The notes beneath the pieces are model-generated. The model was not told where the DNA came from. It searched no databases and saw only the letters and a list, made by a program, of their open reading frames with translations. A DNA stretch of 64,000 nt, taken from the NCBI GenBank assembly GCA_002256345.1, contig NKIY01000001.1:620001-684000 (forward strand), in the 5' to 3' direction. The position numbers and the translations under genes are program-made. Shown here piece after piece: positions 29,435-55,366 of the stretch (its first letter is position 1; each line of letters opens with the position of its first letter). Source of the stretch: Bradyrhizobiaceae bacterium PARB1 (GTDB lineage: Bacteria > Pseudomonadota > Alphaproteobacteria > Rhizobiales > Xanthobacteraceae).

Positions 29435-30274
29435 TCAATGAGCCATACCCGCTGCGGCGAGCGCAGGGGTGGGCTTGGCTGCGGACGCGCGCGGCGGGTT
29501 CTTCACATGGTCCGGAATGCGGACGGTGCCGAAGTGGGCGAGGCCCTTTGGCGTCATCCAGGCGCGGAGCAGGACCTTGTCGTTCGGCGCCGTGAAGGCC
29601 TTGTTCTCGAACAGCCCGCGCTGGACTGACGTCTGTTTGGCGACGATGCGGCTGCCATCACGGAAGCAGTATTCCGGGATCACCACGTCGCGGATGAACA
29701 GGTTCGGGTGGCAGAGCAGGGCGCGGCCGGCATCCTGCAGCCCGATCAGTCCGTCAGCGTTGAGCAGGCGTTCGTAGACCTCGACCTTCGGCGCCTGCGC
29801 TGCAATCTGCGCCTCGGCATTGGCGCGTGCTTCGAACTGCTCGGCCCATGCGCGCGCGGCGACGGCCGGACTGGTGAAGTCGGGGAGAGCAGGGGCGATC
29901 GGCGCCGGGTTGTAGCTGCCGGTCTGCCGGATCTGCGGGAGGACATCGTGGAAGACGAAACGCTGGAAGCGGCCGATCTTCTCGAAGAGGCTGGTGTCGT
30001 GCTGTCGCTTGTTCAGCTTGCGCTGGACGATGGCGCGATAGACGCCGGCTTCGGAGATGATCGTGACCGACTGCTCTCCGCCAAGGGTACGTGCCCGGTA
30101 CGTACCCTTCTCGTCGGGGTCTGCGTTCTTGGTGAGATCGGCTGCATCGCGATAGCCGAGCTCACGGGCGACATCGGTGGCGACAAACCAGGTCTCGCCA
30201 TCCTGCTCCACTAGCCGGACATTCCGGCCTTCAAACTGAAACGCGGTGTCGCTTGAAACTGGCAGGCTCGCCAT
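29435..30274 (-). CDS. phage antirepressor (BRO-N plus ANT/KilA-C domains)
   Basis: A 279-residue antirepressor. The BRO-N domain covers about residues 10-110 (FEGRNVRLVEQDGETWFVAT; VARELGYRDAADLTKNADPD; IISEAGVYRAIVQRK). The C-terminal ANT/KilA-C domain includes GRALLCHPNLFIRDVVIPEY and DKVLLRAWMTPKGLAHFG. The start at 30274 has a GGGAGAG ribosome site. It is the first gene of the minus-strand operon ending in the recombinase. Its promoter carries the same operator motif as the repressor-Cro region, so the repressor should silence it during lysogeny, and its release would help induction. Confidence 0.9.
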   Translation of the reverse strand: MASLPVSSDTAFQFEGRNVRLVEQDGETWFVATDVARELGYRDAADLTKNADPDEKGTYRARTLGGEQSVTIISEAGVYRAIVQRKLNKRQHDTSLFEKIGRFQRFVFHDVLPQIRQTGSYNPAPIAPALPDFTSPAVAARAWAEQFEARANAEAQIAAQAPKVEVYERLLNADGLIGLQDAGRALLCHPNLFIRDVVIPEYCFRDGSRIVAKQTSVQRGLFENKAFTAPNDKVLLRAWMTPKGLAHFGTVRIPDHVKNPPRASAAKPTPALAAAGMAH

Positions 30275-30299
30275 GTCGCTCTCCCGATCTGATGGGGAG

Positions 30300-30328
30300 A
30301 GTATTTGCGATGATCGCAAATTCGTCAA
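30300..30328 (-). promoter_or_regulatory. predicted antirepressor promoter with operator in spacer
   Basis: Read on the minus strand, TTGACG (30328-30323) and AATACT (30305-30300) are 17 bp apart. The palindrome centred at 30312 fills the spacer, so a bound repressor would exclude RNA polymerase. The boxes match consensus at 5/6 and 4/6 positions. Confidence 0.5.
30304..30320. promoter_or_regulatory. repressor operator OA1 at antirepressor promoter
   Basis: TTTGCGATGATCGCAAA contains the perfect palindrome GCGATNATCGC (30307-30317) and extends to TTTGCGA-n3-TCGCAAA. The same core occurs in the repressor-Cro gap at 35923 and 35956. Confidence 0.7.
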
Positions 30329-31083: not shown

Positions 31084-32205
31084 TCAGGCTGTTACTGCTG
31101 CAGAACGATTCCGTCGCGCAAGCATGGCTTTGCCTGCACTGACCATTGGCAATTCGACGAGCCGGTATTGCACCCAAGCGATCGGCAGGATCAGGGCAGT
31201 CGAGCCTATTAAAAGAAGTGCCGCCACACCCAGTGGGTGAAGCCCGGCATTCACCAAATAGGATAGCGCAGGAGACAGGTCGGCACCGAAGGCCATCGTT
31301 ATCGGATGCAGAAGGTAGAAGCTGAAAGACACGCGGCCGATGAACTGGAGCGCTCGATACCACGCTGCGGATGCTGAAGCCTGCACTCCGAACGCAAGCA
31401 GTGCCACAATAGCTGATGCAAATGTCGCTTCAAACCAATAGGTGAAGTACGAGCTCCAGCCGACAATATGCCGCGTCGCCAGAAACGCGATTACGGCAGC
31501 TAACGTCCATAGCCAAGGCCGCGCCAACGTAGCTACATATCTTTGGCCATAGAGATAAACCGTCATGCCAGCGAGGAAGGCGTAGATCTGCCCAAACTGG
31601 CCCGGATCGCCAAACAAGTGGTTCCACGTCCCAACAAAAGACAGGCCGAGCAGAACGATGTACGGCCAGAATATCGCCGCAAAGCCGAGGCGCTGCCAGC
31701 CAAAATAGACGGCAAGGAGCAGGGGCACCGCCGCCATCTCAACCTGCAGCGACCACATAACGCCGTCGATGCTCTTTATGAGCAGCAGTGCGTTCAGCGC
31801 TAACCTGACGGGTTCAAACTCTGATGGTGTAGCCAACGACCGGCCGGAGACGAGATAGGCGATGAAGAACAGCGCCAGAGTACTGACCACTGCCGGATAA
31901 ATACGAAAGATACGGCCGACCGCGAACCTCAACGAAATGCTCGCGCGCGACCCTTTGCTTTGCTCAAGCACCATGGTCAGCACAAAGCCGCTCAGAGCGA
32001 AAAAGAAGATTACCGCCCCCGGGCCATTGGCGAAGACACGCGCAATCTGCGCGGGCCAAGTAAATGGATCGCGAATGCTCGGGATCAAACTTCGGGCGGC
32101 GCCGTCCGCCAAGTATGTCATCTGTCCCGCGTGAAAAAGCGCGACCATTAACGCGGCGATGCCGCGGGCTACCTCAAGATTCGGATAAAATTGCCGTCGT
32201 TCCAT
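31084..32205 (-). CDS. acyltransferase-3 (OafA/YrhL-type) membrane O-acyltransferase, cargo gene
   Basis: A 373-residue integral membrane protein with about ten hydrophobic helices. It begins with the family motif LEVARGIAALMVALFHAGQ, where the conserved histidine is residue 25, and has GAVIFFFALSGFVLTMVLEQ and GRIFRIYPAVV, both typical of acyltransferase family 3. Members move acetyl or other acyl groups onto surface polysaccharides or lipids. Phage-borne relatives are known to change O-antigen (seroconversion) and block infection by related phages. It is transcribed against the preceding phage genes and is flanked by an imperfect direct repeat, so it looks like a late-acquired lysogenic-conversion gene. 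The substrate is unknown. Confidence 0.9.
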   Translation of the reverse strand: MERRQFYPNLEVARGIAALMVALFHAGQMTYLADGAARSLIPSIRDPFTWPAQIARVFANGPGAVIFFFALSGFVLTMVLEQSKGSRASISLRFAVGRIFRIYPAVVSTLALFFIAYLVSGRSLATPSEFEPVRLALNALLLIKSIDGVMWSLQVEMAAVPLLLAVYFGWQRLGFAAIFWPYIVLLGLSFVGTWNHLFGDPGQFGQIYAFLAGMTVYLYGQRYVATLARPWLWTLAAVIAFLATRHIVGWSSYFTYWFEATFASAIVALLAFGVQASASAAWYRALQFIGRVSFSFYLLHPITMAFGADLSPALSYLVNAGLHPLGVAALLLIGSTALILPIAWVQYRLVELPMVSAGKAMLARRNRSAAVTA

Positions 32206-35159: not shown

Positions 35160-35885
35160 TTAGCCGAACAGATCGCGATTTCGGAAGACCTTGTAGATCG
35201 CTTTCACCTCGCCGGCGTCGAATTCGATCTCCTTCGGCGGGTTGAACTGCTCGCAAGTAATCAGCAGGCCTGTGCGGCGTACGAATGTCTTGATGTAACC
35301 CTTGCCAGCCCGGTCTTCGTGTTCGGGGTGATAGAGCTCAATCAGCACATCGTCGCCGGCGACTGGGTTTCCCTTCTGCACGTAGAGTAGGTCGTCGGGA
35401 TCGTAGCGAGGTTTCATGCTCACCCCAGCCATGCGGACGGCAAATACGTTCTTCTTGTGCGCCAGGCCGGGCGGGCGGCGTACGTTCTCCTGCACCTCAC
35501 CGTTGAAATAGAATTCGTCGTCGTCGCCGCCGACGGCGATCCCGCGAACTTCGACGTCATAGTCGCCGAACTGGGAGAGCCTGGGTGCGTCCGCAGCAGG
35601 CTCGGCCTCGGATGGCTCAGGGCCTTCGGGGCGAATTAGTTGGGGAGGCGGCGAGCCGGCGAGACCCGGCGGCATGTCCTGGAAATAGGCGGCAAACGCC
35701 CGCAGCTTTGGCAGCGGAATCGTCTGAGTGTTCTTAGGCGGAGCATCCCGGTCGATATTCGCCATTCGGCTGAGCTGCGTTGGCGTGACTTCGGCCGCAG
35801 CTGCGACCTTGCCGCGCTCGCCATGGGGCAAAGCGCCAAGCTTTTCAGCCAACCAGACCTTGTTTTGGAAGTCCAAGTCACTCAT
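35160..35885 (-). CDS. phage repressor, helix-turn-helix plus S24/LexA-like peptidase domain
   Basis: A 241-residue CI/C2-type repressor. The N-terminal DNA-binding part is about residues 8-70 (GERGKVAAAAEVTPTQLSRM as helix-turn-helix). A Pro/Glu-rich linker (residues 78-102) leads to an S24 peptidase domain with Ser156 in MAGVSMKPRY and Lys199 in KGYIKTFVRR. A standard Ala-Gly cleavage site is not obvious; VRGIAVGG at 113-120 is the closest. It is divergent from the Cro-like gene and has operators directly upstream. It should maintain lysogeny and repress both early genes and the antirepressor. A remnant of a second copy's C-terminus lies at 32311. Confidence 0.93.
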   Translation of the reverse strand: MSDLDFQNKVWLAEKLGALPHGERGKVAAAAEVTPTQLSRMANIDRDAPPKNTQTIPLPKLRAFAAYFQDMPPGLAGSPPPQLIRPEGPEPSEAEPAADAPRLSQFGDYDVEVRGIAVGGDDDEFYFNGEVQENVRRPPGLAHKKNVFAVRMAGVSMKPRYDPDDLLYVQKGNPVAGDDVLIELYHPEHEDRAGKGYIKTFVRRTGLLITCEQFNPPKEIEFDAGEVKAIYKVFRNRDLFG

Positions 35886-35898
35886 CCGATTGTTATTC

Positions 35899-35909
35899 GC
35901 GAATTTCGC
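35899..35909. promoter_or_regulatory. repressor operator O1 (variant)
   Basis: GCGAATTTCGC is a perfect palindrome differing from the other operators at the central bases. It is 14 bp upstream of the repressor ATG, placed for autoregulation. Its centre is 24 bp from O2. Confidence 0.6.
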
Positions 35910-35922
35910 AAATCATTCCATC

Positions 35923-35933
35923 GCGATTATCGC
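35923..35933. promoter_or_regulatory. repressor operator O2
   Basis: GCGATTATCGC, perfect palindrome of the form GCGATNATCGC, followed by AAA as in the antirepressor copies. Centred 33 bp from O3. Confidence 0.75.
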
Positions 35934-35942
35934 AAATATAGC

Positions 35943-35972
35943 TTGACCAATAATCGCGATTATCGCAAAAAT
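35943..35972 (+). promoter_or_regulatory. predicted Cro-side promoter
   Basis: TTGACC (35943-35948) and AAAAAT (35967-35972) are 18 bp apart, with operator O3 filling the spacer, as at the antirepressor promoter. Transcription would begin near 35979-35980, which coincides with an ATG at 35980, so the Cro-like mRNA may be leaderless. Confidence 0.4.
35956..35966. promoter_or_regulatory. repressor operator O3
   Basis: GCGATTATCGC, identical to O2 (the shared stretch TCGCGATTATCGCAAA extends further on both sides). It lies just upstream of the Cro-like gene, where binding would block its promoter. Confidence 0.75.
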
Positions 35973-36602: not shown

Positions 36603-36755
36603 ATGCTGACTTTTTGCGCCGATAGCTGTGTGAGCGCACTTCCATTCGGAAGTGACGAGCTCACAAAGCGATCTACATGCCGCTCACAATCGGCATGTGA
36701 GCAGTCCCATTTCTCTCGCGGCCTCACATACCGATTGGGAGGCGCAAATGTCTGA
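36603..36755 (+). CDS. small cysteine-containing protein, 50 aa
   Basis: A 50-residue frame (MLTFCADSCVSALPFGSDEL; TKRSTCRSQSACEQSHFSRG) with four cysteines. It has one of the best ribosome sites in the early region (AAGGAG, 7 bp before ATG). Its stop overlaps the start of the next gene by 8 bp. The same DNA contains stem-loops and a repeated TGTGAGC motif, so the frame may double as a leader peptide. Confidence 0.5.
   Translation: MLTFCADSCVSALPFGSDELTKRSTCRSQSACEQSHFSRGLTYRLGGANV
36629..36703. repeat. array of TGTGAGC motifs in alternating orientation with two stem-loops
   Basis: TGTGAGC occurs at 36629 and 36696 on the plus strand and as GCTCACA at 36659 and 36682. Two inverted repeats lie between: CACTTCC/GGAAGTG (36637-36654) and ACATGCCG/CGGCATGT (36675-36698). 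The array ends 45 bp before the gene at 36748. It could be an operator set or RNA structure; neither is proven. Confidence 0.5.
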
Positions 36756-37113
36756 CGCTTCCGCAATGCTCAAGAGTCTCGTTGAGCCGTGGCGTCCGGG
36801 CGAATTTTTGAAGGACGTCTTGGAGCGGTGCATGCCGCTGACCAACCTCAAGTACAGTCGCCTGTACGAGATTTGGTACGACCGCGCCAAGCGCGTCGAG
36901 CCGCATGAAGTCAAGGCGATCGCTGATGCGCTCGCGAAGAAGAACAAGGGAGAGGTCTGGCGTGAAATCACCGAACTCAAGAGCCGGCTCGCCCGCCTTG
37001 AAACGATCGTTGCTGGATCTGACGAGGAGTTCGGCCAGCCGACCGTTCCTATGGGCCGCACGCGGCTTCGTGTGGCTAGCGGAGCAAATCGCGCCGCCGG
37101 CGGGCGAGGGTGA
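36748..37113 (+). CDS. early phage protein, helical, possible DNA-binding
   Basis: A 121-residue protein (MSDASAMLKSLVEPWRPGEF). The segment LKYSRLYEIWYDRAKRVEPH, then EVKAIADALAKKN, looks like a helix-turn-helix of the kind in XRE-type regulators, followed by a coiled-coil (REITELKSRLARLETIV). GGGAGG stands 6 bp before the ATG. It lies directly behind the TGTGAGC array and may be its regulator. Family not identified. Confidence 0.75.
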   Translation: MSDASAMLKSLVEPWRPGEFLKDVLERCMPLTNLKYSRLYEIWYDRAKRVEPHEVKAIADALAKKNKGEVWREITELKSRLARLETIVAGSDEEFGQPTVPMGRTRLRVASGANRAAGGRG

Positions 37114-37365: not shown

Positions 37366-38598
37366 ATGATGGGCGTATTGCACGATCCCAGAGCCGGCAG
37401 GACGAAGACGCAGATGGATGTCGCAAAGGCGCTAGCCGACGCGCGCGCCCGGATCGATGCTGCTGCCGCAGCCCATGTCGCCCCGCCACGGCCAGCCGCG
37501 CCAGTGGTCCTCCCGCCCGCAGCGGTTCTGTCGCGCCAAGACGGTATTGGCGGTTCACCGCTCGACCCGCGCCTGACGTTTGCGACGTTCGTCACCGGTC
37601 GCAGCAACTCGCTCGCGCACGCCGCAGCGCGCCAGGTGGCCGATGGCCTCCGCGGCGATCCGGTGATGTTCAACCCGCTCTACATCCATGCCGGCGTCGG
37701 TCTCGGCAAGACGCATCTGCTGCAGGCTTTGACCTGGGCTGTGAGCTCCACGCCAGAGAGGAAGGCGCTGTATCTCACGGCGGAGAAATTCATCTTCGGC
37801 TTTGCCGCCGCGCTGAAGACTAAGGATGGATTCGCCTATAAGGAATCGTTGCGCGGCATTGATGTGCTAGTCATCGACGACCTGCAGTTCCTGCTCGGGA
37901 AGCTGCATCTCGACCTGCTCGGCGCCGCCATCAATGCGGTTATCGACGCCGGCCGGCAGGTCATTCTCGCCGCCGATCGCCCCGCGTCCGAGCTTGAGGG
38001 CCTAGATCAACGCACGTCGTCGCGTCTGGCCGCCGGTTTGGTCGTCGAGATGGGCAAACCGGACCGCGAGCAGCGCCGGTTGATTTTGCTGGAGCGTGTC
38101 GCCGCGGCGCGAGCGCATCATCCGGACTTCGATATCGCCGACTCCATCCTCGACTATCTGGCCGAGGCGCTGGCCAGCAACGGCCGCGATCTCGAGGCCG
38201 TGGTGAACCGGCTTCTAGCGCACAGCAAGCTGAACGGCTCTGCGGTGACGATGGATCTCGCGGAGCGCGAGGCTCGCGACCTTGTCCGTCCGCAGGAGCA
38301 GCGCCGAATTCGTATCGAGGATATCCTGCGCGCCACCGCCAGTCATTTCCATGTCAGCCGCAGCGACCTGATGTCTGCGCGCCGTACGGCCAACATCGTG
38401 AAGCCCCGGCAACTGGCGATGTACCTCGCCAAGACGCTGACGCTGCGGTCGCTGCCAGAAATCGGCCGGCGCTTTGGCGGTCGGGACCATACGACCGTCC
38501 TCCATGCCGTCCGAAAGATGGAGCGGATCATCCCGACGGATGCCGATCTCGGCGCGGCGGCGGAGAAAATCAAAAATCAGCTTCAGGAGGGGATCTAG
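37366..38598 (+). CDS. phage-encoded DnaA paralogue (domains III and IV, no domain I)
   Basis: A 410-residue replication initiator-like protein. Residues about 65-290 form the AAA+ domain with Walker A GVGLGKTH (110-117), Walker [11 protein letters not shown] (D171-D172), sensor I ILAADRP, an arginine-finger region SRLAAGL and sensor [14 protein letters not shown]. Residues 312-400 form the duplex-DNA-binding domain IV, with the DnaA signature [15 protein letters not shown] at 370-384. Bacterial DnaA also has an N-terminal helicase-loading domain I; here only an Ala/Pro-rich leader of about 65 residues is present. The retained domain IV separates it from Hda/HdaA. It may recruit host replication proteins to a phage origin or compete at host DnaA boxes. 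Confidence 0.93.
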
Positions 38599-38996
38599 TG
38601 GCACCGCGCAAGAGATTTTGGAACGTCGAGACGATCGGTCGTATGCGCCAACTGGCGGCAGATGGCGCCGCGCATTCTGAAGTCGCAACTGCGCTTGGCG
38701 CCACCATCAACAGCGTGATCGCCGCAGCCGCCGCGCATGGTGTCACCATCAAGCGCCATACGGTGGCAGAGACCGCTGATCTCAAGGAGCGTGAACGGGA
38801 TCGCGACAAGCGCAAGAAGGTGAACAAGCGTCTTCGCGAGATCACGGCGCTGCACAAGGCCGCCGGTCTGCCTGCTGTCACCAAAACCTCAGCGGCCTAT
38901 CGCAATCAGCTGCCAGGCATCGGTGAGCGCTCGAAACCCGAACTGCGCGCCATGCTTGCCGAAGCTGCCCGCAACACAGCGGAGATGTCCGTCTGA
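38598..38996 (+). CDS. helix-turn-helix protein, GcrA-like N-terminus
   Basis: A 132-residue protein starting with GTG that overlaps the DnaA-like stop. The first 50 residues (RFWNVETIGRMRQLAADGAA; SEVATALGATINSVIAAAAA; HGVTIKR) follow the GcrA pattern of a W, a spaced helix and an S-x-x-I/V-A-x-x-L-G-x-T-x-x-x-V recognition helix. The rest is a charged helix and a tail unlike the sigma-binding end of GcrA. A general Myb/resolvase-type helix-turn-helix is the alternative. GcrA proper is a sigma-70 cofactor that reads GANTC methylation. Confidence 0.55.
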   Translation: MAPRKRFWNVETIGRMRQLAADGAAHSEVATALGATINSVIAAAAAHGVTIKRHTVAETADLKERERDRDKRKKVNKRLREITALHKAAGLPAVTKTSAAYRNQLPGIGERSKPELRAMLAEAARNTAEMSV

Positions 38997-38998
38997 TG

Positions 38999-39232
38999 TT
39001 AGGTATCTGCGATCAGGTCGAATTCGTCGTGCATCTGATGGCTGACAGCGAGTGCTGCGCGCCTGATCAAATCACCGTCGGAGGATCCAAGACCGTACGG
39101 AACGAGCGACCACTCGCCGTCATCGTCCAGCGTCAGAGTCAAGCAGGACACGCCGCGGCACCCCGGACGCATGCGAAGGCGCTGCAGGCCAATGGCCTCA
39201 AGTTCCTCAACGTTCTTCTTGGCGCGGTGCAT
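38999..39232 (-). CDS. small protein on opposite strand within early operon
   Basis: A 77-residue frame (MHRAKKNVEELEAIGLQRLR; CLTLTLDDDGEWSLVPYGLG; IRRAALAVSHQMHDEFDLIA) with good composition and a strong ribosome site (GAGGAG, about 7 bp before ATG). An overlapping plus-strand frame of 100 residues (38996-39298) is less protein-like. Function unknown. It is one of three small minus-strand genes nested among plus-strand early genes. Confidence 0.6.
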   Translation of the reverse strand: MHRAKKNVEELEAIGLQRLRMRPGCRGVSCLTLTLDDDGEWSLVPYGLGSSDGDLIRRAALAVSHQMHDEFDLIADT

Positions 39233-39294
39233 TCTGCTCTCCTCAGTTCCGCAAACGATATGGCTCGCGCTGAGTTCCAGCAAGCGAGGTCGGC

Positions 39295-40092
39295 ATGAGC
39301 GTCGAGACCTTCCTCAATGGGGACGTCCGGCTGATACACGGCGATTGCCTGGAGCATCTACCAGCGCTCGGCCAGGTCTCATGCGTCATGTCGGATCCGC
39401 CGTATGAAGCGCACATGCATGCTGCAAAGCGGGGAAAAAAAGTCTTTGGCGCGCAGCGGCGTATCCGCACGGATGGCCATGCCAATCCGCCGCCGGTGAA
39501 CTTCGCCTCTATCGATGGTGTGCGTGAGGTCGTCACCCAGCCGCTTATCGAGATGTGCCAGGGCTGGTTCATCATGTTCTGCACGCCGGAGGGCGTGGCG
39601 CCGTGGCGTGACGAGATCGAGGCTGCGCAGGCGAAATACAAGCGCGCCTGCATCTGGGTGAAGCCGGACAGCGCCCCGCAATTCAACGGGCAGGGCCCGG
39701 CAATGGGCGCCGAGTGTTTTGTCACCGCTTGGTGCGGTCCTGGCTTGTCGTCGTGGAATGGCGGCGGCCGGCGCAACGTCTTCACGCACCTGACAAATGC
39801 CAGCGATCGGCATGGCGAGCACCCGACCGAAAAGCCGCTCTCGCTCATGCTTGAGCTCGTCGACCTGTTCACGCAGCCGGGTGATCTGATCCTAGACCCT
39901 TTTATGGGGTCGGGCTCGACGGGAGTGGCCGCTGTGCGGCTGGGCCGTCGGTTCATCGGCATCGAGAAGGATGCCCGATACTTCGAGATCTCCAGCGAGC
40001 GGATCGCCGACGCGGTGTCCCGTCCTGACATGTTCATCTCGCAGCGCGTTGAGCCGGCGAAGCAACAGCCGCTGTTCTCGGAGGCCTCATGA
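39295..40092 (+). CDS. DNA adenine/cytosine-N4 methyltransferase
   Basis: A 265-residue amino-methyltransferase. The catalytic DPPY motif (SDPPYEAHMH) comes near residue 37, and the SAM-binding motif DPFMGSGSTG near residue 202, so motif IV precedes motif I, as in beta-class enzymes including CcrM. HPTEKPLSLMLELVDLFT is the usual segment before motif I. It lacks the C-terminal extension of CcrM, so the target is unknown. The ATG is preceded by GAGG. No restriction endonuclease is adjacent, so protection of phage DNA or gene control are the likely roles. Confidence 0.92.
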   Translation: MSVETFLNGDVRLIHGDCLEHLPALGQVSCVMSDPPYEAHMHAAKRGKKVFGAQRRIRTDGHANPPPVNFASIDGVREVVTQPLIEMCQGWFIMFCTPEGVAPWRDEIEAAQAKYKRACIWVKPDSAPQFNGQGPAMGAECFVTAWCGPGLSSWNGGGRRNVFTHLTNASDRHGEHPTEKPLSLMLELVDLFTQPGDLILDPFMGSGSTGVAAVRLGRRFIGIEKDARYFEISSERIADAVSRPDMFISQRVEPAKQQPLFSEAS

Positions 40093-40214
40093 GCAAGTAC
40101 AGCACCAGAAACAAGAACCGTCCGCGGAAGCGATCAAAGCCCAGCCCCAAGGTTCGGAAGGCCAGGAAGGCCGCCGCGGTCGCATCCTTCCAATCAGAGG
40201 CAGCAGCAGAATGA
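40089..40214 (+). CDS. small basic protein, 41 aa
   Basis: A 41-residue, highly basic frame (MSKYSTRNKNRPRKRSKPSP; KVRKARKAAAVASFQ). Its start overlaps the methyltransferase stop (ATGA) and its stop overlaps the next start (ATGA). This double coupling supports translation. The charge suggests nucleic-acid binding. Confidence 0.6.
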   Translation: MSKYSTRNKNRPRKRSKPSPKVRKARKAAAVASFQSEAAAE

Positions 40215-40630
40215 AGCTCTACGTCGCCGGCCCGATGCGCGGGATCCCGCATTTCAATTTTCCGCTGTTCCACGCTGCGACCGGCCGGCTACGCGCCGCC
40301 GGGCATCAGGTGTTCAATCCGGCTGAGCGCGACATCGCGGCCACCGGCGTGGATATCTCGGCCGACAATCCGACCGGAAGCAACGAGCAAGCCGAAGCCA
40401 ACCACGGCTTCAATCTGCGCGAAGCTCTGAAGGACGATCTCGAATTCGTCTGCCTCCATGCGGACGGCGTCGTCATGCTTCCGGGTTGGGTGAACAGCAA
40501 GGGCGCCAATGCAGAGGTGGCCACGGCTATCGCTTTAAACCTGCGGCTCTTCCACTACACCGAGGCCGATCCGCTCGTCGAAGTCTCCAAGGCTGACCGT
40601 CCGATCACTGCATTCGCGGAGGCGTCATGA
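40211..40630 (+). CDS. DUF4406 protein (nucleoside 2-deoxyribosyltransferase-like)
   Basis: A 139-residue protein beginning MKLYVAGPMRGIPHFNFPLF, the signature of DUF4406, with FNPAERD and the later segment DGVVMLPGWVNSKGANAEVA typical of the nucleoside deoxyribosyltransferase fold. Phages often carry this family near DNA-metabolism genes, where it may process modified nucleosides or nucleotides. It is coupled at both ends by ATGA overlaps. Confidence 0.9.
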   Translation: MKLYVAGPMRGIPHFNFPLFHAATGRLRAAGHQVFNPAERDIAATGVDISADNPTGSNEQAEANHGFNLREALKDDLEFVCLHADGVVMLPGWVNSKGANAEVATAIALNLRLFHYTEADPLVEVSKADRPITAFAEAS

Positions 40631-40839
40631 CCCAGGCAGCGAAGACGGTTCCGACCCGCTATCAGGTGCTGCAGGTGCACGATTCCCACTTGCAGGGGCT
40701 GTACGACGCTGGCTGGGCCTACGTCGAGCCAGCGGAAGTGCCGGGCTACAGCATCATTGCGTGGCAGAGCGACAAGCCGCCCGTGGTGCCGCTGTCGTTC
40801 GCCAAGGTTCCGGCGACGGAGGCGGGCCATGTCGGTTGA
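40627..40839 (+). CDS. early phage hypothetical protein, 70 aa
   Basis: A 70-residue protein (TRYQVLQVHDSHLQGLYDAG; SIIAWQSDKPPVVPLSF). The start overlaps the DUF4406 stop, and its end overlaps the winged-helix gene. No domain recognised. Confidence 0.75.
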   Translation: MTQAAKTVPTRYQVLQVHDSHLQGLYDAGWAYVEPAEVPGYSIIAWQSDKPPVVPLSFAKVPATEAGHVG

Positions 40840-41131
40840 TCTGCTGCTTCCCAACGAATGGGCTGTACGCGGAGCGCAGCGGGACGTTGTCGCGGCGTTC
40901 CTTGATGCGCCAGGCGGCGCGCTCTCGTACCCCGATCTTGCCGCGCTGATCTGCCCGACGGCGAAGCCTAAGAGCCAGATCGTAATTGCTCGGCGTCATG
41001 TTCGCGAGCTGCGCGCCAAGCTGGGTCATCTTGGAGTAGCGATCCACGCCCGCTGGGGCGAGGGCTATGAGATGCCGGCCGCTTCCCGCGAGATAATCCG
41101 GGACGCAATCGAGAAAAGGCTAGCGGCATGA
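40829..41131 (+). CDS. OmpR/PhoB-type winged-helix DNA-binding protein without receiver
   Basis: A 100-residue protein that corresponds to the effector domain of response regulators alone: ERRAQRDVVAAFL-like first helix, then RRHVRELRAKLGHLGVAIHA and RWGEGYEMP, equivalent to the recognition helix and wing (R-x-L-R-x-K-L, G-x-G-Y). There is no phosphoacceptor domain. The start at 40829 lies in a GCCATG context inside the end of the previous gene. It is probably a phage transcription regulator; target unknown. Confidence 0.75.
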   Translation: MSVDLLLPNEWAVRGAQRDVVAAFLDAPGGALSYPDLAALICPTAKPKSQIVIARRHVRELRAKLGHLGVAIHARWGEGYEMPAASREIIRDAIEKRLAA

Positions 41132-41169
41132 ATGCGGCGTGCAGTCCGCTGGTTTGGCTGGCTAATAGT

Positions 41170-41397
41170 TCAATTAACCAACTGGTAAGTGCGGCGAAGC
41201 CTCGTCTGCATCTGGTTGATCTCCTTGGTCTCCTCCGGGAAGCGACGTCTGTCACGAGGCGACATCAGAATGGACCAGCTATCGCCGTCGGGAACTATTG
41301 CGCAGCTCGGATGAGACCTCGCGATCACGTCGCGTGCCGAGAGTTCTTGATGGACCAGATAGATCAACTGGTCTGCAGTCATCATCTTTTTCGTCAT
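41170..41397 (-). CDS. small protein on opposite strand within early operon
   Basis: A 75-residue frame (MTADQLIYLVHQELSARDVI; DGDSWSILMSPRDRRRFPEE; INQMQTRLRRTYQLVN) with convincing helix-strand alternation. No strong ribosome site was seen at 41397 or at the next ATGs. An overlapping plus-strand frame (41128-41451) looks like an antisense shadow. Function unknown. Confidence 0.5.
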   Translation of the reverse strand: MTKKMMTADQLIYLVHQELSARDVIARSHPSCAIVPDGDSWSILMSPRDRRRFPEETKEINQMQTRLRRTYQLVN

Positions 41398-41447
41398 GGC
41401 GGTTTTATTGCAGCTCTCGATGGCCGCAGCAACTCTGGGGGTAGACC

Positions 41448-41744
41448 ATGACTGGGCCTGGTAGCAACACCGGCGTTACCGCCTCATCGGTTCTCGACGA
41501 TCAGGCCACCCACAGCTTCGCCAAGGAGCAGCTGAAGGCCATCGTCGAGCGTATCGAACGGCTGGAAGAAGAGAAAAAGACGATCTCTGACGACATCAAG
41601 GACGTCTACGGAGAGGCCAAGGGAAACGGCTACGACGTGAAAGCCCTGCGCACCATCATTCGCATGCGCAAGCAGGACGCTAACGAGCGGGCGGAGCAGG
41701 AGACGATCCTCGATACCTACCTCCAGGCACTAGGAATGTTGTGA
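41448..41744 (+). CDS. GapR-family nucleoid protein (DUF2312)
   Basis: A 98-residue protein. From residue 25 it follows GapR closely: [59 protein letters not shown] and the ending [11 protein letters not shown]. Alphaproteobacterial GapR is an essential, dimeric or tetrameric protein that clamps overtwisted DNA ahead of replication forks and transcription and stimulates topoisomerases. This copy is phage-borne, with a variable N-terminus, and lies immediately before the replication gene (1 bp gap). It may shape phage DNA supercoiling during replication. Confidence 0.93.
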
Positions 41745-41745
41745 G

Positions 41746-42675
41746 ATGAGCCTTTGGTGGCGCGCAGAATGCGGATCTATCGACCATCCGAAGCTGCTGA
41801 AGCTGTCGGATTCGATGCACCGCGCCTGGTACACGCTAATGTGCGTCGCTGGCGCGAATGGCGGCGCGCTGCCGCCGACCGAAGACATCGCCATCCGACT
41901 GCGCATGAACAAGGCAAAAGTCGCCGAATGGATCACCAAGCTGGTGCAGGCCGACCTTTTCGACAATGTCGATGGCGTGTTCGTTCCGCACAATTGGACC
42001 AAACGACAATACAAGAGCGACAAGACGGACCCGACCGCCGCCGAGCGGATGAAACGGTTTCGGAAAAACAAGAAGGATCGTAACGCTGTTACGAATGAAA
42101 CGGGGCGTAACGACCGTAACTGTACCGTAACGGGGTTACGACCAGAAGCAGAGGCAAACTCAGAAGCAAATTCAGAGCAAAGCAGAGCAGACGCTTGCGC
42201 GCCTGTGGATGAAGATTTGAGGAAAAGGGAAGCGGGCCTTCTGGCTGGCATAGCAGCCCACTTCGCTGCTCGCGCTCAGACGATGCCGTCGAACACTGAT
42301 CGGGTGGCTGTTTGGCTATCTGAGGGCTATGCGGCTGGCACGGTGCTCAAGGCCGTCGAAACGGTGCTGAAGCGCGGCAAACCAGTCAGCACGCTCGAGT
42401 ACTTCGACGGCGCCATCAAGGATGCTCACGCCAAGGCCGCGCCGGAAAACCTGCAAGTCGTGTCGTCGAAGGTGTTTGTGATTGTAGGCACCCAAGGCTG
42501 GATCAGCTGGGATACCGAGCACCGCGCGGCGAACAACGGCCGGGGCTTGCCGACGACGCAACACCAGATCGGCAACGTGATCCGGGATGGTTGGTGGTGC
42601 ACGAGCGAGTTCGCCCCCGGTTGGGACGAAGCCACCGGCGAAAAGCTTCCCCCATCAGCAGAGGACGCAGCATGA
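41746..42675 (+). CDS. phage replication-initiation-type protein
   Basis: A 309-residue protein. The N-terminus (MSLWWRAECGSIDHPKLLKL; YTLMCVAGANGGALPPTEDI; AIRLRMNKAKVAEWITKLVQ) is the winged-helix found at the start of phage replisome-organiser proteins. It is followed by a basic, low-complexity linker (RMKRFRKNKKDRN) and a C-terminal region with VAVWLSEGYAAGTVLKAVET and WWCTSEFAPGWDEATGEK. Repeated TAACG motifs in the linker DNA (about 42080-42140: GTAACGCTGTTACG, CGTAACGACCGTAAC, CCGTAACGGGGTTACG) resemble iterons inside the gene, as in lambda O. Likely binds the phage origin, possibly located within its own gene. Confidence 0.75.
   Translation: MSLWWRAECGSIDHPKLLKLSDSMHRAWYTLMCVAGANGGALPPTEDIAIRLRMNKAKVAEWITKLVQADLFDNVDGVFVPHNWTKRQYKSDKTDPTAAERMKRFRKNKKDRNAVTNETGRNDRNCTVTGLRPEAEANSEANSEQSRADACAPVDEDLRKREAGLLAGIAAHFAARAQTMPSNTDRVAVWLSEGYAAGTVLKAVETVLKRGKPVSTLEYFDGAIKDAHAKAAPENLQVVSSKVFVIVGTQGWISWDTEHRAANNGRGLPTTQHQIGNVIRDGWWCTSEFAPGWDEATGEKLPPSAEDAA
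42078..42139. other. iteron-like GTAAC cluster, candidate phage origin inside the replication gene
   Basis: Within about 60 bp the motif GTAAC or its complement GTTAC occurs repeatedly (CGTAACGCTGTTACG, GCGTAACGACCGTAACTG, CCGTAACGGGGTTACG), giving direct and inverted copies. Lambda-type replication genes commonly carry origin iterons at this position. The sequence just downstream (42140-42190) is purine/A-rich, as in lambda ori. Assignment is by analogy. Confidence 0.5.
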
Positions 42676-47986: not shown

Positions 47987-48481
47987 GTGGGTAAGCGAGG
48001 TCCGAAGCCGAAGCTGTCGGCGCTCGACAAGCTTGAGGGAAACCCTGGCAAACGAGTGATCGAGGAGAGCGGCATCGAGGCACTTGGTGAACCGTTCACT
48101 CCTGAACATCTGTCTGACGACGCTCGCGGCTGCATCGAGGCAATCAAGATGTCGATGCCGGCTGGTGTCTATTCTGCTCTCGACAGTTTCATCCTTTCGG
48201 CGTTCGCGACTGCCTGGGCGCTGCACAAGCTGGCGGCCCACAAGATCAATGATCCGGCTTTCGAACACATCATCGAGGTGGGTGATAACGGCGCGCAGGC
48301 GCAAAGCCCATGGCTCGCAATCCTAAACAAGCAGGCCGCGCTGATGGCGACGCTCGGCGATCGTCTCGGGTTGGATCCGAAAAGCCGCGCCGCGCTCAAA
48401 CTGCCGGGCGCCAAGCAGCGCAAAAGCAAGTTCGCCGGTCTGCTCGGGCAGACCGGATCATCGCCTTCATTGAGCAGTTAA
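47987..48481 (+). CDS. terminase small subunit (P27 family)
   Basis: A 164-residue protein starting with GTG (MGKRGPKPKLSALDKLEGNP, the typical P27-type beginning GKRGPKP with L-x-G-N-P). The helical middle (ALDSFILSAFATAWALHKLA; SPWLAILNKQAALMATLGDR) and the ending LGLDPKSRAALKL match the family. It recognises phage DNA for packaging. The last 172 bp overlap the start of the large subunit in another frame. Confidence 0.93.
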   Translation: MGKRGPKPKLSALDKLEGNPGKRVIEESGIEALGEPFTPEHLSDDARGCIEAIKMSMPAGVYSALDSFILSAFATAWALHKLAAHKINDPAFEHIIEVGDNGAQAQSPWLAILNKQAALMATLGDRLGLDPKSRAALKLPGAKQRKSKFAGLLGQTGSSPSLSS

Positions 48482-49995
48482 AGGTCCCATCAGGTGAAGG
48501 GCAGGGTGGTCGGTTTCTACTACGCGAGTGGCAAAAGCGCTTCATTCGTGACATCTACGAGCCGCACGGTGTTGATGGTCGCCGGCGTGTCCGTCGAGCC
48601 ATCCTCTCGATCGCACGAAAGAATGGCAAGACGGCACTGATTGCCGCGCTGGTGCTGGTCCATCTGGTCGGGCCTGAATCGGTCCAGAACGGTGAAATCT
48701 ACTCTGCGGCCAACGATCGCGAGCAGGCCGCGCAGGTGTTCAAGGTCGCAGCGCAGATAGTGCGCGCGGATCCTGAGCTGAGCGACCTGCTGAAGGTCGT
48801 CGACTCCACCAAGCACATCGCGTGCTTTGCGAACGGTTCCTTTTACAAGGCGATGTCGGCCGAGGCCGGCACCAAACACGGTCTCAACCCGACCTTCGTC
48901 ATCTTCGACGAGCTGGCGCAGGCCAAGAACCGGGAACTCTACGACGTCCTCGACACCTCGATGGGGGCGCGCTCCGAACCGCTCTTCATCGTGATCTCGA
49001 CGCAGTCGAACGATCCCGAGCATATCCTGTCGAAGTTGATCGACGACGGCAGGGAAGCCAAAGACCCGACGATCGTGTGTCACCTCTATGAGGTGCCGGA
49101 GGACTGCAAGGACATCTTCGATCCGAAGGTGTGGAAGAAGGCAAACCCTGCGCTCGGTGATTTCCGATCGTTGGCCGATCTCAAAGCGATCGCCGACAAG
49201 GCGATGCGCATGCCGGCAGAGGAACCGAAGTTTCGGAACCTCTATCTTAATCAACGCGTGGCGCCAATCGCTTCGTTGATTTCGCGCGCGGAATGGACCG
49301 CGTGCGCTGGTGAAGCTGCCTTTGAGCCGAAGGAAGAAGTCTATCTTTCGCTTGACATGTCCGCCGTCGTCGACTTGACGGCGCTGGTCATGGGAAGCGC
49401 TGGCGACAAGACGAAGGTCAGACCCTTCGTCTGGAAGCCTCAAGAATTGCTTCGTGAGCATAGCGATCGCGATTTCGGGGCCGGCAATAACCGGTACGGG
49501 CAGTGGCACAAGGAAGGCCACTTGCTGGTGTCTCCCGGGCGATCAATCGACCCCGCCGTGGTAGCGCTGAAGATCGCCGAGCTGGTGAAGGAATACAAAG
49601 TCCTCGGCCTTGCCTACGATCGGTGGCGCATCGCTGATCTGCTTCGTGAGTTCGATCGCATCGGTCTCGCGGCATGGGAGGATAAGGGCGGGGATAAGCC
49701 GGGGTCCGGCCTGCGTCTCATCCCGTGGGGCCAGGGTTTCAGAGACATGGCTCCCGCGATCGATGCCCTTGAGCTGGCGGTCATAGACCGGAGTCTGGTG
49801 CAGCCTGCGAACCCGGTTCTGACCTGGGCGATGGCCAACGCTGTTGCGACCATGGATCCCGCCGGCAATCGTAAGCTCGACAAAGATAAGGCGCGCTTCC
49901 GCATCGACCCTGCGGTGGCACTCACGATGATGGTCGGCCTCAAGTCGCGCGACGCTAAGAAGGCAGCGCCGACCTTCCAGATGTTGTTCATCTAA
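48310..49995 (+). CDS. terminase large subunit
   Basis: A 561-residue packaging motor. The ATPase part has Walker A in SIARKNGKTALIAAL (101-113) and Walker B FVIFDEL (197-202). The nuclease part includes YLSLDMSAVVDLTALV near 340-355 and DYDRW-like GLAYDRWRIADLL. Family Terminase_1/YmfN of HK97-like phages. The only in-frame start upstream of the conserved ADRIIAFIEQL is ATG 48310, which forces a 172-bp overlap with the small subunit gene. All motifs are intact. Confidence 0.95.
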   Translation: MARNPKQAGRADGDARRSSRVGSEKPRRAQTAGRQAAQKQVRRSARADRIIAFIEQLKVPSGEGQGGRFLLREWQKRFIRDIYEPHGVDGRRRVRRAILSIARKNGKTALIAALVLVHLVGPESVQNGEIYSAANDREQAAQVFKVAAQIVRADPELSDLLKVVDSTKHIACFANGSFYKAMSAEAGTKHGLNPTFVIFDELAQAKNRELYDVLDTSMGARSEPLFIVISTQSNDPEHILSKLIDDGREAKDPTIVCHLYEVPEDCKDIFDPKVWKKANPALGDFRSLADLKAIADKAMRMPAEEPKFRNLYLNQRVAPIASLISRAEWTACAGEAAFEPKEEVYLSLDMSAVVDLTALVMGSAGDKTKVRPFVWKPQELLREHSDRDFGAGNNRYGQWHKEGHLLVSPGRSIDPAVVALKIAELVKEYKVLGLAYDRWRIADLLREFDRIGLAAWEDKGGDKPGSGLRLIPWGQGFRDMAPAIDALELAVIDRSLVQPANPVLTWAMANAVATMDPAGNRKLDKDKARFRIDPAVALTMMVGLKSRDAKKAAPTFQMLFI

Positions 49996-50006
49996 GGATT
50001 CACGAC

Positions 50007-51968
50007 ATGAACCGTGCATATGCAATCCTCACCGTGAAGGCGGTGGAGGAAGACAAGCGCGTCATCCGAGGAACTGCCACCACACCGAGCCCTGACCGTG
50101 TCGGAGACATCGTCGAGCCGCTCGGTGTCGAATTCAAGAACCCGATGCCCTTGCTGCATCAGCACGACTCGCGCGCGCCGGTAGGCACGGTCCGCTTCGA
50201 CAAGCCGACGAAAGACGGCATCACGTTCGAGGCACAGCTCCCGACCATCACCGAACCTGGCGCTTTAAAAGATCGGATCGATACAGCGTGGGGCGAAGTG
50301 AAGGCCGGCCTTGTCAGCGCCGTCTCGATCGGCTTCAGCCCTCTCGAATATTCCCGGATGGAAGATGGCGGCTACCGCTACATCCGAAGCGAAGTTCTCG
50401 AGCTCTCGCTCGTGACCGTGCCGGCAAATGCCGACTGCACGATCTCTCTCGTCAAGTCACTCGATGTCGCTCAGCGGGCCGCGTCAGGCCAGCCGCCAGA
50501 TGACATCGAACCGAAACCTCCCGCGCCTGGGAAAAAGATCAACCCCGTAGTCAAGGCCCAGGAGGCCAAAACGATGAAGAAGACCGTTGCTGAGCAGATT
50601 TCTGCTTTCGAAGCCACGCGCCAGGCCAAGTCGGCCCGGATGCTGGAGATCATGGATGGCGCGGCGGAGAAGGGCGAGACCCTCGATGCCGCGTTGACCG
50701 ACGAGTACGATGGGCTCGAAGCCGAAATCAAATCGGTGGACGCGCATCTCGTTCGTCTGCGCGCACTTGAAGAAGCCAACAAGAAGTCCGCGGCTCCGGT
50801 CGATGGCACGACCACGCAGCGCGCCGCCGAAAGCCGCAGCGGTGTCACCGTTCTGTCGGTGAAATCCAATCTGCCGGCCGGCACCGCGTTCACCCGCTAT
50901 GCCATGGCGCTCGCGCTCGGCAAGGGCAACCTGATGCAGTCGGCAGAGATAGCCAAGGGCTGGCACGACAGCACGCCCGAAGTCGAAACCGTGCTGAAGG
51001 CTGCGGTTGCCGCTGGCAACACCACGGACACCGCCTGGGCCAAGCCGTTGGTCGAATACCAGAACATGGCGTCGGAATTCGCCGAGCTGCTGCGCCCGCA
51101 GACTATCATCGGTCGCATCCCCGGCCTTCGCCGCGTGCCCTTCAACATCAAGATCCCGCGTCAGACCTCCGGCTCGTCCGCGAGCTGGGTGGGCGAGGGT
51201 GCTCCGAAGCCCGTGTCCGCGCTGGCGTTCGACAAGATCGAGCTCGGCATGACCAAGCTTGCTGGCATCGTCGTGCTGACCGAGGAATTGGTCCGAGCGT
51301 CCAATCCGGCGGCCGAAGCCATTGTCCGTCAGGATCTGTCCGACACCATCATCCAGACGATGGATCGTGACTTCGTGAACCCGGCCAAGGCGGCCGATGC
51401 CGGCGTGTCGCCCGCGTCGATCACCAACGGCGTAACGCCGGTCGTTGCCAGCGGCACCACAGCGGATCATGTGCGCGCGGACGTGCGCGCGCTACTCGCC
51501 AAGTTCATCACCGCGAACATGTCCCTCTCGGGTGCGGTGTGGATCATGAGCGAGCGTCGTGCTTTGGGTCTCGCGATGATGCTCAACGCTCTCGGCCAGC
51601 CGGAATTCCCCGGCCTGGAGATCAACGGCACGTCCGGCGGCACGTTCTTCAACCTGCCTGTGGTGCTGTCTGAGAACGTCACCGCCAACCCCGGCACCGG
51701 TTCGCCGCTGGTCGGCGCCGGCGATCGCATCATCCTGGCGAAGGCGAACGAGATCCTCCTCGCCGACGATGGTCAGGTCATGCTCGACGCCAGCAACCAG
51801 GCGTCGCTGCAGATGGATAGTGCCCCGACCAATCCGCCGGTGGCGGCCACGGTGATGGTGTCGCTGTGGCAGATGAACCTGGTCGGCATCCGCGCCGAGC
51901 GCTTCATCAACTGGTCCAAGCGCCGCGCCGGCGCCGTCCAGTACATCGACAGCGCCAATTACGCCTGA
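50007..51968 (+). CDS. fused HK97-type prohead protease and major capsid protein
   Basis: A 653-residue polypeptide. Residues 1 to about 150 are a prohead protease: His in LLHQHDSRAPVG (51/53), Ser107 in SAVSIGF and LELSLVTVPAN as the third conserved strand. Residues 190-300 are a coiled-coil delta-like region (LTDEYDGLEAEIKSVDAHLV). Residues 300-653 are an HK97-fold capsid (FAELLRPQTIIGRIPGLRRV; KIELGMTKLAGIVVLTEEL; GIRAERFINWSKRRAGAVQY). An internal ATG at 50574 (residue 190) has a full AGGAGG site, so free capsid precursor can also be made. It lies between large terminase and portal. Confidence 0.93.
   Translation: MNRAYAILTVKAVEEDKRVIRGTATTPSPDRVGDIVEPLGVEFKNPMPLLHQHDSRAPVGTVRFDKPTKDGITFEAQLPTITEPGALKDRIDTAWGEVKAGLVSAVSIGFSPLEYSRMEDGGYRYIRSEVLELSLVTVPANADCTISLVKSLDVAQRAASGQPPDDIEPKPPAPGKKINPVVKAQEAKTMKKTVAEQISAFEATRQAKSARMLEIMDGAAEKGETLDAALTDEYDGLEAEIKSVDAHLVRLRALEEANKKSAAPVDGTTTQRAAESRSGVTVLSVKSNLPAGTAFTRYAMALALGKGNLMQSAEIAKGWHDSTPEVETVLKAAVAAGNTTDTAWAKPLVEYQNMASEFAELLRPQTIIGRIPGLRRVPFNIKIPRQTSGSSASWVGEGAPKPVSALAFDKIELGMTKLAGIVVLTEELVRASNPAAEAIVRQDLSDTIIQTMDRDFVNPAKAADAGVSPASITNGVTPVVASGTTADHVRADVRALLAKFITANMSLSGAVWIMSERRALGLAMMLNALGQPEFPGLEINGTSGGTFFNLPVVLSENVTANPGTGSPLVGAGDRIILAKANEILLADDGQVMLDASNQASLQMDSAPTNPPVAATVMVSLWQMNLVGIRAERFINWSKRRAGAVQYIDSANYA
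50560..50576 (+). promoter_or_regulatory. internal ribosome site and start codon for capsid-only product
   Basis: AGGAGG (50560-50565), an 8-bp spacer and an in-frame ATG (50574) lie at the protease-capsid boundary. Initiation here would give a 464-residue protein beginning MKKTVAEQISAFEATRQ, the normal start of a delta-domain capsid precursor. Confidence 0.7.
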
Positions 51969-55049: not shown

Positions 55050-55366
55050 ACCTAGTGACCGTTGAAGAGGCGAATGATCATCTTCGGCTCGATCTCGAAG
55101 GGAACGATGATGAGTTCGATGACGAGCGACTGCCCGATCTCGAATTGAAAATCGCTCAGGCCTCCGACATTGTCGTCGGATACCTGAAGAAGCCCGACAA
55201 TACATGGACGGCTCAGTCGGTTCCGCCGGCAATCAAAGCTGCCACGCTCTTGGTGCTTTCCGCTTTATGGGAAGACCGTGAGGGTACCGGTGACGGCGAT
55301 TTCCTTCGCCCGGATGGCGCCGTAGCTCGCCTGCTTGTCCGCCACAGAGATCCGGCGATCGCATGA
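55043..55366 (+). CDS. head-tail connector (gp6-like)
   Basis: A 107-residue protein (MVDLVTVEEANDHLRLDLEG; DLELKIAQASDIVVGYLKKP; AIKAATLLVLSALWEDREGT) with the pattern of phage gp6-like DNA-packaging/connector proteins: an N-terminal VT-x-E-E-A-x-x-H-L-R-x-D and an amphipathic helical core. It overlaps the preceding gene by 7 bp and the next by 4 bp. Confidence 0.88.
   Translation: MVDLVTVEEANDHLRLDLEGNDDEFDDERLPDLELKIAQASDIVVGYLKKPDNTWTAQSVPPAIKAATLLVLSALWEDREGTGDGDFLRPDGAVARLLVRHRDPAIA

Follow-up and report, generated by a model that had tools for sequence, protein, structure and literature searches.

Does an early phage operon that resembles the alphaproteobacterial cell-cycle circuit allow a prophage to run a replication clock of its own, or does it act on the clock of its host? 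The question is raised by a 64-kb stretch of the 6.95 Mb genome of Bradyrhizobiaceae bacterium PARB1 (contig NKIY01000001.1, positions 620001-684000), which is called the window in the following. That its early region belongs to an intact-looking temperate prophage is borne out by integrase, repressor, antirepressor, terminase, portal, capsid and tail genes. The region encodes look-alikes of DnaA, GcrA, a DNA adenine methyltransferase and GapR, and the original prediction suggested that a phage holding all four could either time its own replication or tap the host circuit. The frame list and the domain searches confirmed the four open frames, all on one strand. The observation was thereby confirmed and is wider than predicted: the same gene types, similarly ordered, recur in a sister prophage of the same genus (L009; loci are cited by such numbers) and in viral contigs. 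The genes from DnaA onwards are listed here (RepI is a working label adopted in this analysis).

37366-38598, plus strand: phage DnaA, domains III and IV (TIGR00362, 371.1 bits)
38598-38996, plus strand: 132-aa protein with a GcrA-type helix-turn-helix and a differing C-terminal tail (by profile comparison; below the Pfam cut-off)
39295-40092, plus strand: beta-order DNA adenine methyltransferase with DPPY motif, phrog_67 (N6_N4_Mtase, 90.1 bits)
40211-40630, plus strand: DUF4406 / nucleoside 2-deoxyribosyltransferase-like protein (PF14359, 62.1 bits; phrog_355, 92.7 bits)
40829-41131, plus strand: small winged-helix protein, weakly like the OmpR effector domain (Trans_reg_C, 20.0 bits, below the cut-off of 26.2)
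41448-41744, plus strand: phage GapR (PF10073, 118.6 bits)
41746-42675, plus strand: RepI, a phage replication initiation / DnaD-like helicase-loader protein (phrog_3926, 43.6 bits; phrog_10469, 32.1 bits)

To survey the gene set in other phages, IMG/VR viral contigs were fetched with three anchors and the best 80 were kept for each: GapR (best 80 of 90), the DNA-binding domain IV of DnaA (DnaA-IV, best 80 of at least 456) and GcrA (best 80 of 242). Because the loci were fetched by these anchors, the fractions are not population frequencies. Few seeds went into the local profiles, some of which were enlarged by one round, and a subset of the matches was confirmed against Pfam. The GapR-anchored set (80 loci, 73 clusters) contained DnaA-IV in 25 clusters, a GcrA-profile protein in 25, both in 11, RepI in 16 and a beta methyltransferase in 14; a DnaA AAA+ domain was found in none of the 80 loci. 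In the DnaA-IV-anchored set (80 loci, 76 clusters) we found GapR in 36, a beta methyltransferase in 20, GcrA in 14, the AAA+ domain in 12, RepI in 12 and a DnaN clamp in 8, and no other kind in 22; thus only the DNA-binding domain of DnaA was detected in 64 of the 76. The GcrA-anchored set comprised 79 loci in 67 clusters (80 rows, from which L141 was left out as already present; the contigs of L380, L381 and L454 are shared with the GapR scan), with DnaA-IV in 15, GapR in 16, both in 8 and neither in 44. In the union of the GapR- and DnaA-IV-anchored sets (160 loci, 147 dereplicated clusters) all four kinds occur together in three clusters with a beta methyltransferase, and in six if MT-A70 enzymes are counted as methyltransferase.

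Where the genes occur together, their same-strand order is strongly non-random. Viral contigs share the order DnaA domain, GcrA-type protein, methyltransferase, GapR and RepI, and locus L112 repeats the window order: a DnaA reduced to domain IV, the homologue of the 132-aa protein, a methyltransferase (here MT-A70), the winged-helix protein, GapR and RepI. Of the 24 clusters with both DnaA-IV and a GcrA-profile protein, 18 have the latter no more than 1.5 kb downstream of the former (expected fraction 0.045); for GapR, at up to 6 kb downstream of DnaA-IV, the figure is 42 of 59 (0.193 expected). RepI follows GapR within 3.2 kb in 21/21 clusters and DnaA-IV within 6 kb in 19/19 (expected fractions 0.119 and 0.189), a beta methyltransferase follows DnaA-IV within 6 kb in 18/23 (0.173), and GapR follows GcrA within 6 kb in 21/30 (0.199). 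Among the relatives of the host the module is uncommon: the 132-aa protein is matched in four of 101 genomes, its own genome counted, and RepI in eight of 296 genomes of the family. As single queries, the 132-aa protein found no relative in the viral contigs and RepI none in the genome-contig collection. A second layout is seen in L194, L196 and L198 of the DnaA-IV-anchored set, with DnaN and GapR profile matches on one strand and an AAA+-bearing DnaA and a methyltransferase on the other.

The prediction of a DnaA paralogue was correct, with one part of the protein missing. The phage DnaA exceeds the equivalog cut-off of TIGR00362 (343.9 bits; model positions 99-437), matches Pfam Bac_DnaA (154.1 bits) and Bac_DnaA_C (100.4 bits) and has 63% identity to the host DnaA across 413 amino acids; two DnaA-C genes, this one included, were found in the source genome. 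Its Walker A and B motifs and its domain IV signature are intact. Domain I is absent, since the model match begins at position 99 and two of the first 75 columns of the host DnaA are filled. Domain I of DnaA makes the helicase-loading and partner contacts. The window protein also lacks the conserved EFCHT segment after Walker B, which presumably adjoins the single-strand-binding motif. This segment is retained in the DnaA of L008, the one relative (58% identity) that was found in the viral contigs with DnaA as single-protein query. L008 (12740-13837, 14013-16754) has a DnaN sliding clamp of its own in addition to DnaA and GcrA, and a methyltransferase frame that may contain an intein-like insert. 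At least two DnaA-like matches, which may include phage, plasmid and true second genes as well as genes split by the assembly, are present in each of 20 other genomes of the family; genus g23 accounts for 11 of these genomes (e.g., G039, G173, G202, G263).

AAA+-bearing relatives in the viral contigs are those of L008 (the contig of L201), L190-L194, L196-L199, L221, L222 and L238. Eleven phage DnaAs, the window protein counted, were compared domain by domain with the host DnaA, with 26 chromosomal DnaAs of the class as reference. Identity to the host protein is 35-70% in domain III and 65-83% in domain IV, while the class means are 52% and 66%. Domain III falls below the class mean in five of the eleven (L194, L192, L199, L196, L198), and domain IV lies above it in ten, the exception being L008. 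Walker, sensor or arginine-finger motifs are changed in several (L192, L196, L198). An 11-residue protein segment is kept exactly in 8/11 AAA+-bearing phage DnaAs and the basic loop is kept, so these proteins should still read ordinary DnaA boxes. AAA+-bearing phage proteins and those consisting of domain IV only have N-termini in common: 17 pairs were found at E <1e-3 (12 once two doubly sampled contigs count singly), compared with 0-2 in 20 shuffles and one with the N-termini of chromosomal DnaAs. The clearest pairs are L008 with L146 (5e-16), L249, L153 and L200, and the window with L112 (3e-10). These shared N-termini suggest that the ATPase was lost (or gained) within a single gene lineage, in which box binding would have stayed constant. 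A DnaA tree (48 rows, quick method) places the window protein and L008 beside the chromosomal DnaAs of the host family, on long branches that are compatible with one or several captures.

GapR is a clear homologue, as predicted. Its GapR DNA-binding domain scores far above the PF10073 cut-off of 22.6 bits, and it matches UPF0335/GapR structures with E-values of 1.3e-31 to 8.6e-19. The NCBIfam GapR equivalog gives 102.7 bits for the phage and 100.8 bits for the host protein, both under its cut-off of 140. Phage and host GapR are identical at 84 of 87 residues and their genes differ at 41 of 259 aligned bases, with dN 0.032, dS 1.43 (near saturation) and dN/dS about 0.02. The phage gapR is old, yet held to the host sequence. 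A GapR relative is encoded in 155 of 50,697 INPHARED records; the 60 matches listed are for the most part phages whose names refer to Alphaproteobacteria, with four Microcystis phages among them, and a large number of the annotations read hypothetical. From the named phages and the host's own GcrA, CcrM and GapR we infer that the phage hosts are Alphaproteobacteria. The winged-helix protein encoded before GapR is conserved (56% identical in L009, 61% in L112); its best solved structure is BaeR at a non-significant E of 0.14. We rejected it as a CtrA-like protein, the similarity being weak and of OmpR type.

The methyltransferase is a beta-order adenine enzyme, in which DPPY comes first and the SAM motif last, just as had been read from the sequence. 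Its proposed link to CcrM was not supported. Against the CcrM model it scores 79.6 bits over positions 181-256 only, without a full-length match that includes the C-terminal part, whereas the host's own CcrM reaches 612.4 bits over positions 4-349. The model cut-off of 830 is not diagnostic, because the host CcrM misses it too, and it is the score and coverage, unlike those of the host CcrM, that rule out this identity. The enzyme is 91.6% identical over 262 amino acids in L009 and has a homologue in L193; in L054 and L112 its position is occupied by an MT-A70 enzyme, which also speaks against the CcrM link. A scan of genome contigs with the methyltransferase gave single profile matches in five of the best 80 of 178 loci, and no module gene was found around the two best matches (L300, L301).

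For the 132-aa protein the prediction of a GcrA-like helix-turn-helix stands at the level of profiles and fails at that of single sequences. In hhalign the profile of its family (four members: window, L112, L147, L134) matched a GcrA profile, built from 12 proteins of viral contigs and prophage-like loci, with 97.2% and an E-value of 3.6e-11, along the 47-column helix-turn-helix alone; the sole control, a DnaA domain IV profile, gave 1.7%. Against an identity as GcrA, the window protein scores 14.3 bits to Pfam GcrA, below the cut-off, and two other matches of similarly poor quality have better E-values. In addition, all five members scanned (those in the window, L009, L112, L147 and L134) stay below the Pfam GcrA cut-off, HTH_7 outscores GcrA in the L009 copy (24.5 bits, above its own cut-off, against 16.9), and HTH_23 ranks above GcrA in the L134 member. 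A phmmer search of solved structures ranked a GcrA domain first with a weak E of 0.93, and Foldseek with the AlphaFold model (mean pLDDT 79.7) gave a best E of 0.22, with no match at ≤0.001.

The GcrA match ends at residue 52, and the window tail contains no Cys. The Cys-containing C-terminal part of GcrA, which has a sigma70-binding role, is absent from the 132-aa protein and present in the GcrA proteins of L008, L009 and L193. Pfam GcrA is matched with 54.0 bits by the L131 protein and with 46.3 bits by that of L137, and both proteins also align along the C-terminal tail of the 132-aa family. The host's own GcrA reaches 201.1 bits, above the cut-off. In L009 a GcrA above the cut-off (41.1 against 26.9 bits) is encoded in addition to a counterpart of the 132-aa protein with 53% identity. 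In L193 a GcrA of 71.4 bits directly follows the phage DnaA, in the slot which the 132-aa protein occupies in the window, and matches two of the three PHROGs matched by the window protein (16311 and 323). The simplest reading is that the 132-aa protein has a GcrA helix-turn-helix with a replaced C-terminal part. With a GcrA above the Pfam cut-off in the same slot or close to it, and with the recurrent order, the four genes are more than the chance neighbourhood that the original prediction had left as an alternative.

If the phage ran a clock of its own, DnaA boxes would be expected on its DNA. The exact box scanned, TTATNCACA, does not occur in the window, no box cluster was found there, and sites with at most one mismatch are fewer than expected by chance (11 against 16.1). 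The 107 related loci contain 19 exact boxes against 15.3 expected, without enrichment or clusters. A phage oriC with DnaA boxes was thus rejected for the window and for these loci. L013 has two exact boxes at locus positions 7620 and 10449, past the right end of the window. GANTC is depleted in the window (116 against 336 expected), in the 107 loci with DnaA-IV (5372 against 17512) and in 53 loci without it (2412 against 8521). A GANTC-rich phage is ruled out by this depletion in every set counted, and the depletion carries no specific signal, because loci without DnaA-IV show it likewise. CtrA sites were also searched in the window, and no exact TTAA-N7-TTAA was found. A self-contained clock is not supported, because exact boxes are missing from the window and relatives show no enrichment of them; near-boxes in the window lie below chance, and the AAA+ domain was not found in 64/76 DnaA-anchored clusters. 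Tapping the host clock is the likelier half of the original prediction.

The explanation that we favour, tentatively and at somewhat less than even chances, is that of a lytic-onset operon built on a recurrent plan, which resets the replication and transcription state of the host in favour of phage replication. It starts from the genes, their order and its recurrence, the loss of domain I and the strongly conserved domain IV and GapR. Also in its favour are the six clusters with all four kinds, the N-termini common to AAA+-bearing and domain-IV-only proteins, the lack of box enrichment, the low dN/dS of gapR and a methyltransferase place that persists while the enzyme in it changes. The plan would comprise a DnaA-type box reader, a GcrA-type reader, a DNA methyltransferase, the winged-helix protein, GapR and RepI. 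After relief of repression the phage DnaA, which most relatives have as domain IV only, would bind DnaA boxes. Because the phage holds no box array these should lie on the host, at oriC and at DnaA-regulated promoters. Without domain I the phage DnaA should be unable to recruit the helicase-loading partners of the host and would therefore be a regulator or competitor of the host DnaA, not an origin opener. The GcrA-type protein may bind promoters without sigma70 contact, or may compete with the host GcrA, and the methyltransferase would mark phage DNA. GapR would hold overtwisted DNA and favour topoisomerase action at phage forks begun by RepI. The net effect would be a host whose replication and transcription state is shifted towards phage replication.

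Several observations weigh against this explanation. The phage DnaA retains its Walker A, Walker B and sensor motifs. Residues that align to domain I remain in five of the 11 phage DnaAs (L190, L191, L192, L198, L199), and L008 shows no preference for domain IV, its identity to the host DnaA being 65% there and 68% in domain III. In L009 the DnaA-IV-like protein scores 31.2 against a Pfam cut-off of 31.5 and was missed by the local profile. The distance limits of the order test were picked after the first loci had been seen, and its positional null is lenient, because phage early genes share a strand anyway. Co-occurrence was significant with the GcrA anchor (DnaA-IV with GapR, odds ratio 6.3, p 0.005) and not with the GapR anchor (DnaA-IV with the GcrA-type protein, p 0.16; with RepI, p 0.12) or the DnaA anchor (GapR with the GcrA-type protein, p 0.75). 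As the order is fixed and co-occurrence is significant in one of three sets, we regard the module as a recurrent repertoire with fixed layout, not as an obligate circuit. Finally, the published DnaA-IV relatives GafY and GafA are described in the available passages as activators of phage-like structural genes, not of host genes.

A stronger version, which we consider rather doubtful, is a recurrent ordered cassette for cell-cycle capture in alphaproteobacterial temperate phages. Here a host DnaA would have been stripped of its helicase-loading domain and then of its ATPase to become a pure box binder, which, together with GcrA-type readers, interchangeable methyltransferases and a near-unchanged GapR, would take over host initiation and transcription at lytic onset.

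The rival that survives best, although still unlikely, is that there is no circuit at all and that unrelated useful genes lie together, as phage early regions gather DNA-binding and DNA-modifying genes: the methyltransferase would act against restriction, GapR would serve fork topology, and the small helix-turn-helix proteins would be phage regulators. The co-occurrence results of the GapR- and DnaA-anchored samples fit this view, as does a methyltransferase that is not CcrM, and of the four kinds GapR stands alone in 20 and DnaA-IV in 23 of the 147 clusters. Unrelated genes would not be expected to keep a fixed order with very low chance probabilities, nor to place an MT-A70 enzyme where the methyltransferase is encoded in the window (L054, L112) or a GcrA above the Pfam cut-off at or close to the slot of the 132-aa protein (L193, L009).

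An improbable alternative is that the DnaA and DnaA-IV proteins are activators of phage promoters and operons of the GafY/GafA type, the ATPase being a vestige where it remains. Caulobacter GafY is homologous to DnaA domain IV and helps to activate the gene-transfer-agent cluster (PMC9632790, PMC11150451), and the DnaA-like domain of GafA is needed for activation (PMC9638019), according to the passages available from these papers. The predominance of domain-IV-only forms (64/76 clusters) is in line with such a role. However, the same sources give GafA a glutamate for the minor-groove arginine of DnaA, whereas the basic loop is retained in the AAA+-bearing phage proteins, and the window lacks the exact boxes that such activators would read on phage DNA, with no enrichment of them in relatives. 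Least of all do we expect a working second initiator that melts a phage origin and times phage replication, since the over-cut-off score, the Walker A, Walker B and sensor motifs and the position of DnaA 3.1 kb before RepI, which would suit it, stand against the missing domain I, the lost EFCHT segment, the lack of an exact box in the window and of box clusters in the loci scanned, and the 64/76 DnaA-anchored clusters without an AAA+ domain.

Returning to the lytic-onset operon, single parts of it have already been reported from scattered alphaproteobacterial phages, and the recurring ordered set, with graded reduction of DnaA in one slot, goes beyond these; the open-access literature, in the passages available, yielded no report of the ordered set, an absence that is weak evidence, and the passages on these systems describe no phage DnaA without domain I. 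In the portions available, gp222 of the Caulobacter phage phiCbK is a GcrA homologue proposed to raise the expression of the host replication apparatus (PMC3556154). Thus, GcrA is phage-borne there as well, but in a 205 kb phage, where it is detected as Pfam GcrA and discussed alone, with no mention in these portions of a phage DnaA or GapR. The methyltransferases of phiLM21 and related Sinorhizobium prophages also lie beside a replication module; for these adenine enzymes GANTC specificity was shown, and they are described as unrelated to CcrM (PMC5537653, available passages). They carry an NPPY/F/W motif in place of the DPPY of the window enzyme (phrog_67). A table of phiLM21-like prophages has open reading frames annotated as DnaA (1), GcrA (5) and UPF0335 (1), the last being the database name of the GapR family; these are separate rows, and the part available describes no shared locus or order (PMC12429752).

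GafY, HdaB and GafA are, like the window protein, DNA-binding proteins of the DnaA domain IV type from phage-like elements of Alphaproteobacteria (PMC9632790, PMC11150451, PMC9638019, PMC6363796). They differ in belonging to gene transfer agents, and the passages available describe neither an AAA+ domain nor an operon with GcrA, methyltransferase and GapR. The GapR of Erythrobacter phage R34L1 was claimed in 2025 as the first in a phage (PMC12185513). R34L1 also has a methyltransferase frame, but its GapR is treated as a single auxiliary gene, and the main text, as far as available, does not contain the words DnaA or GcrA. The T4 protein DsbA is given as a GapR homologue in an excerpt of PMC7824862. 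A similar layout is seen in the Bradyrhizobium prophages ppBeUSDA76-2 (OP596614) and ppBjS10J-1 (OP596615), with a DnaA domain IV protein, GapR and a DUF1376 or RepI-like protein in order; their DnaA protein has domain IV only and is annotated as hypothetical, and in the stretches fetched GcrA and methyltransferase were neither annotated nor found by the local profiles.

Early genes that are like host regulators of the cell cycle and of chromosome copying, and that are repeated in related viruses, suggest that these viruses work through the growth controls of the host. An interest of phages in the host cell cycle is discussed in a research article (PMC9437464, in part available), and the ordered set opens phage takeover of the alphaproteobacterial cell cycle to direct test in Caulobacter or Sinorhizobium. 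The phage DnaAs are natural variants in which box binding is uncoupled from helicase loading and ATPase. They also bear on the two readings given to one DnaA-IV protein in the available part of PMC9632790, HdaB as a replication regulator and GafY as an activator of gene transfer agents.

The remaining features of the prophage are listed below.

25979-27640, minus strand: serine integrase, prophage frame gene
29435-30328, minus strand: antirepressor, prophage frame gene
31084-32205, minus strand: acyltransferase (phrog O-acetyltransferase), within the prophage
35160-35885, minus strand: CI/S24-type phage repressor (phrog_4, 37.4 bits)
35896-35972, no strand: three 20-nt operator-like repeats (direct repeat family D1), lying between repressor and first rightward gene
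36682-37113, plus strand: small early protein with a weak Cro/C1-type helix-turn-helix match (HTH_26, 14.9 bits, below the cut-off of 22)
47987-49995: terminase, prophage frame gene
50007-51968, plus strand: fused prohead protease and major capsid protein in one 653-aa frame
52281-53687: portal, prophage frame gene
55363-55983, plus strand: match to a PHROG annotated as sialyltransferase, located between the portal gene and those of the tail
58271-60190: tape measure, prophage frame gene

The repressor is 55% identical over 215 amino acids to that of the sister prophage L009, and the D1 repeats next to it are probably its operators. The acyltransferase might modify the surface of the lysogen. 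Just beyond the integrase end of the prophage, a 4365-aa filamentous-haemagglutinin-like protein with TPS and DUF3739 domains is encoded at 12054-25151 on the plus strand.

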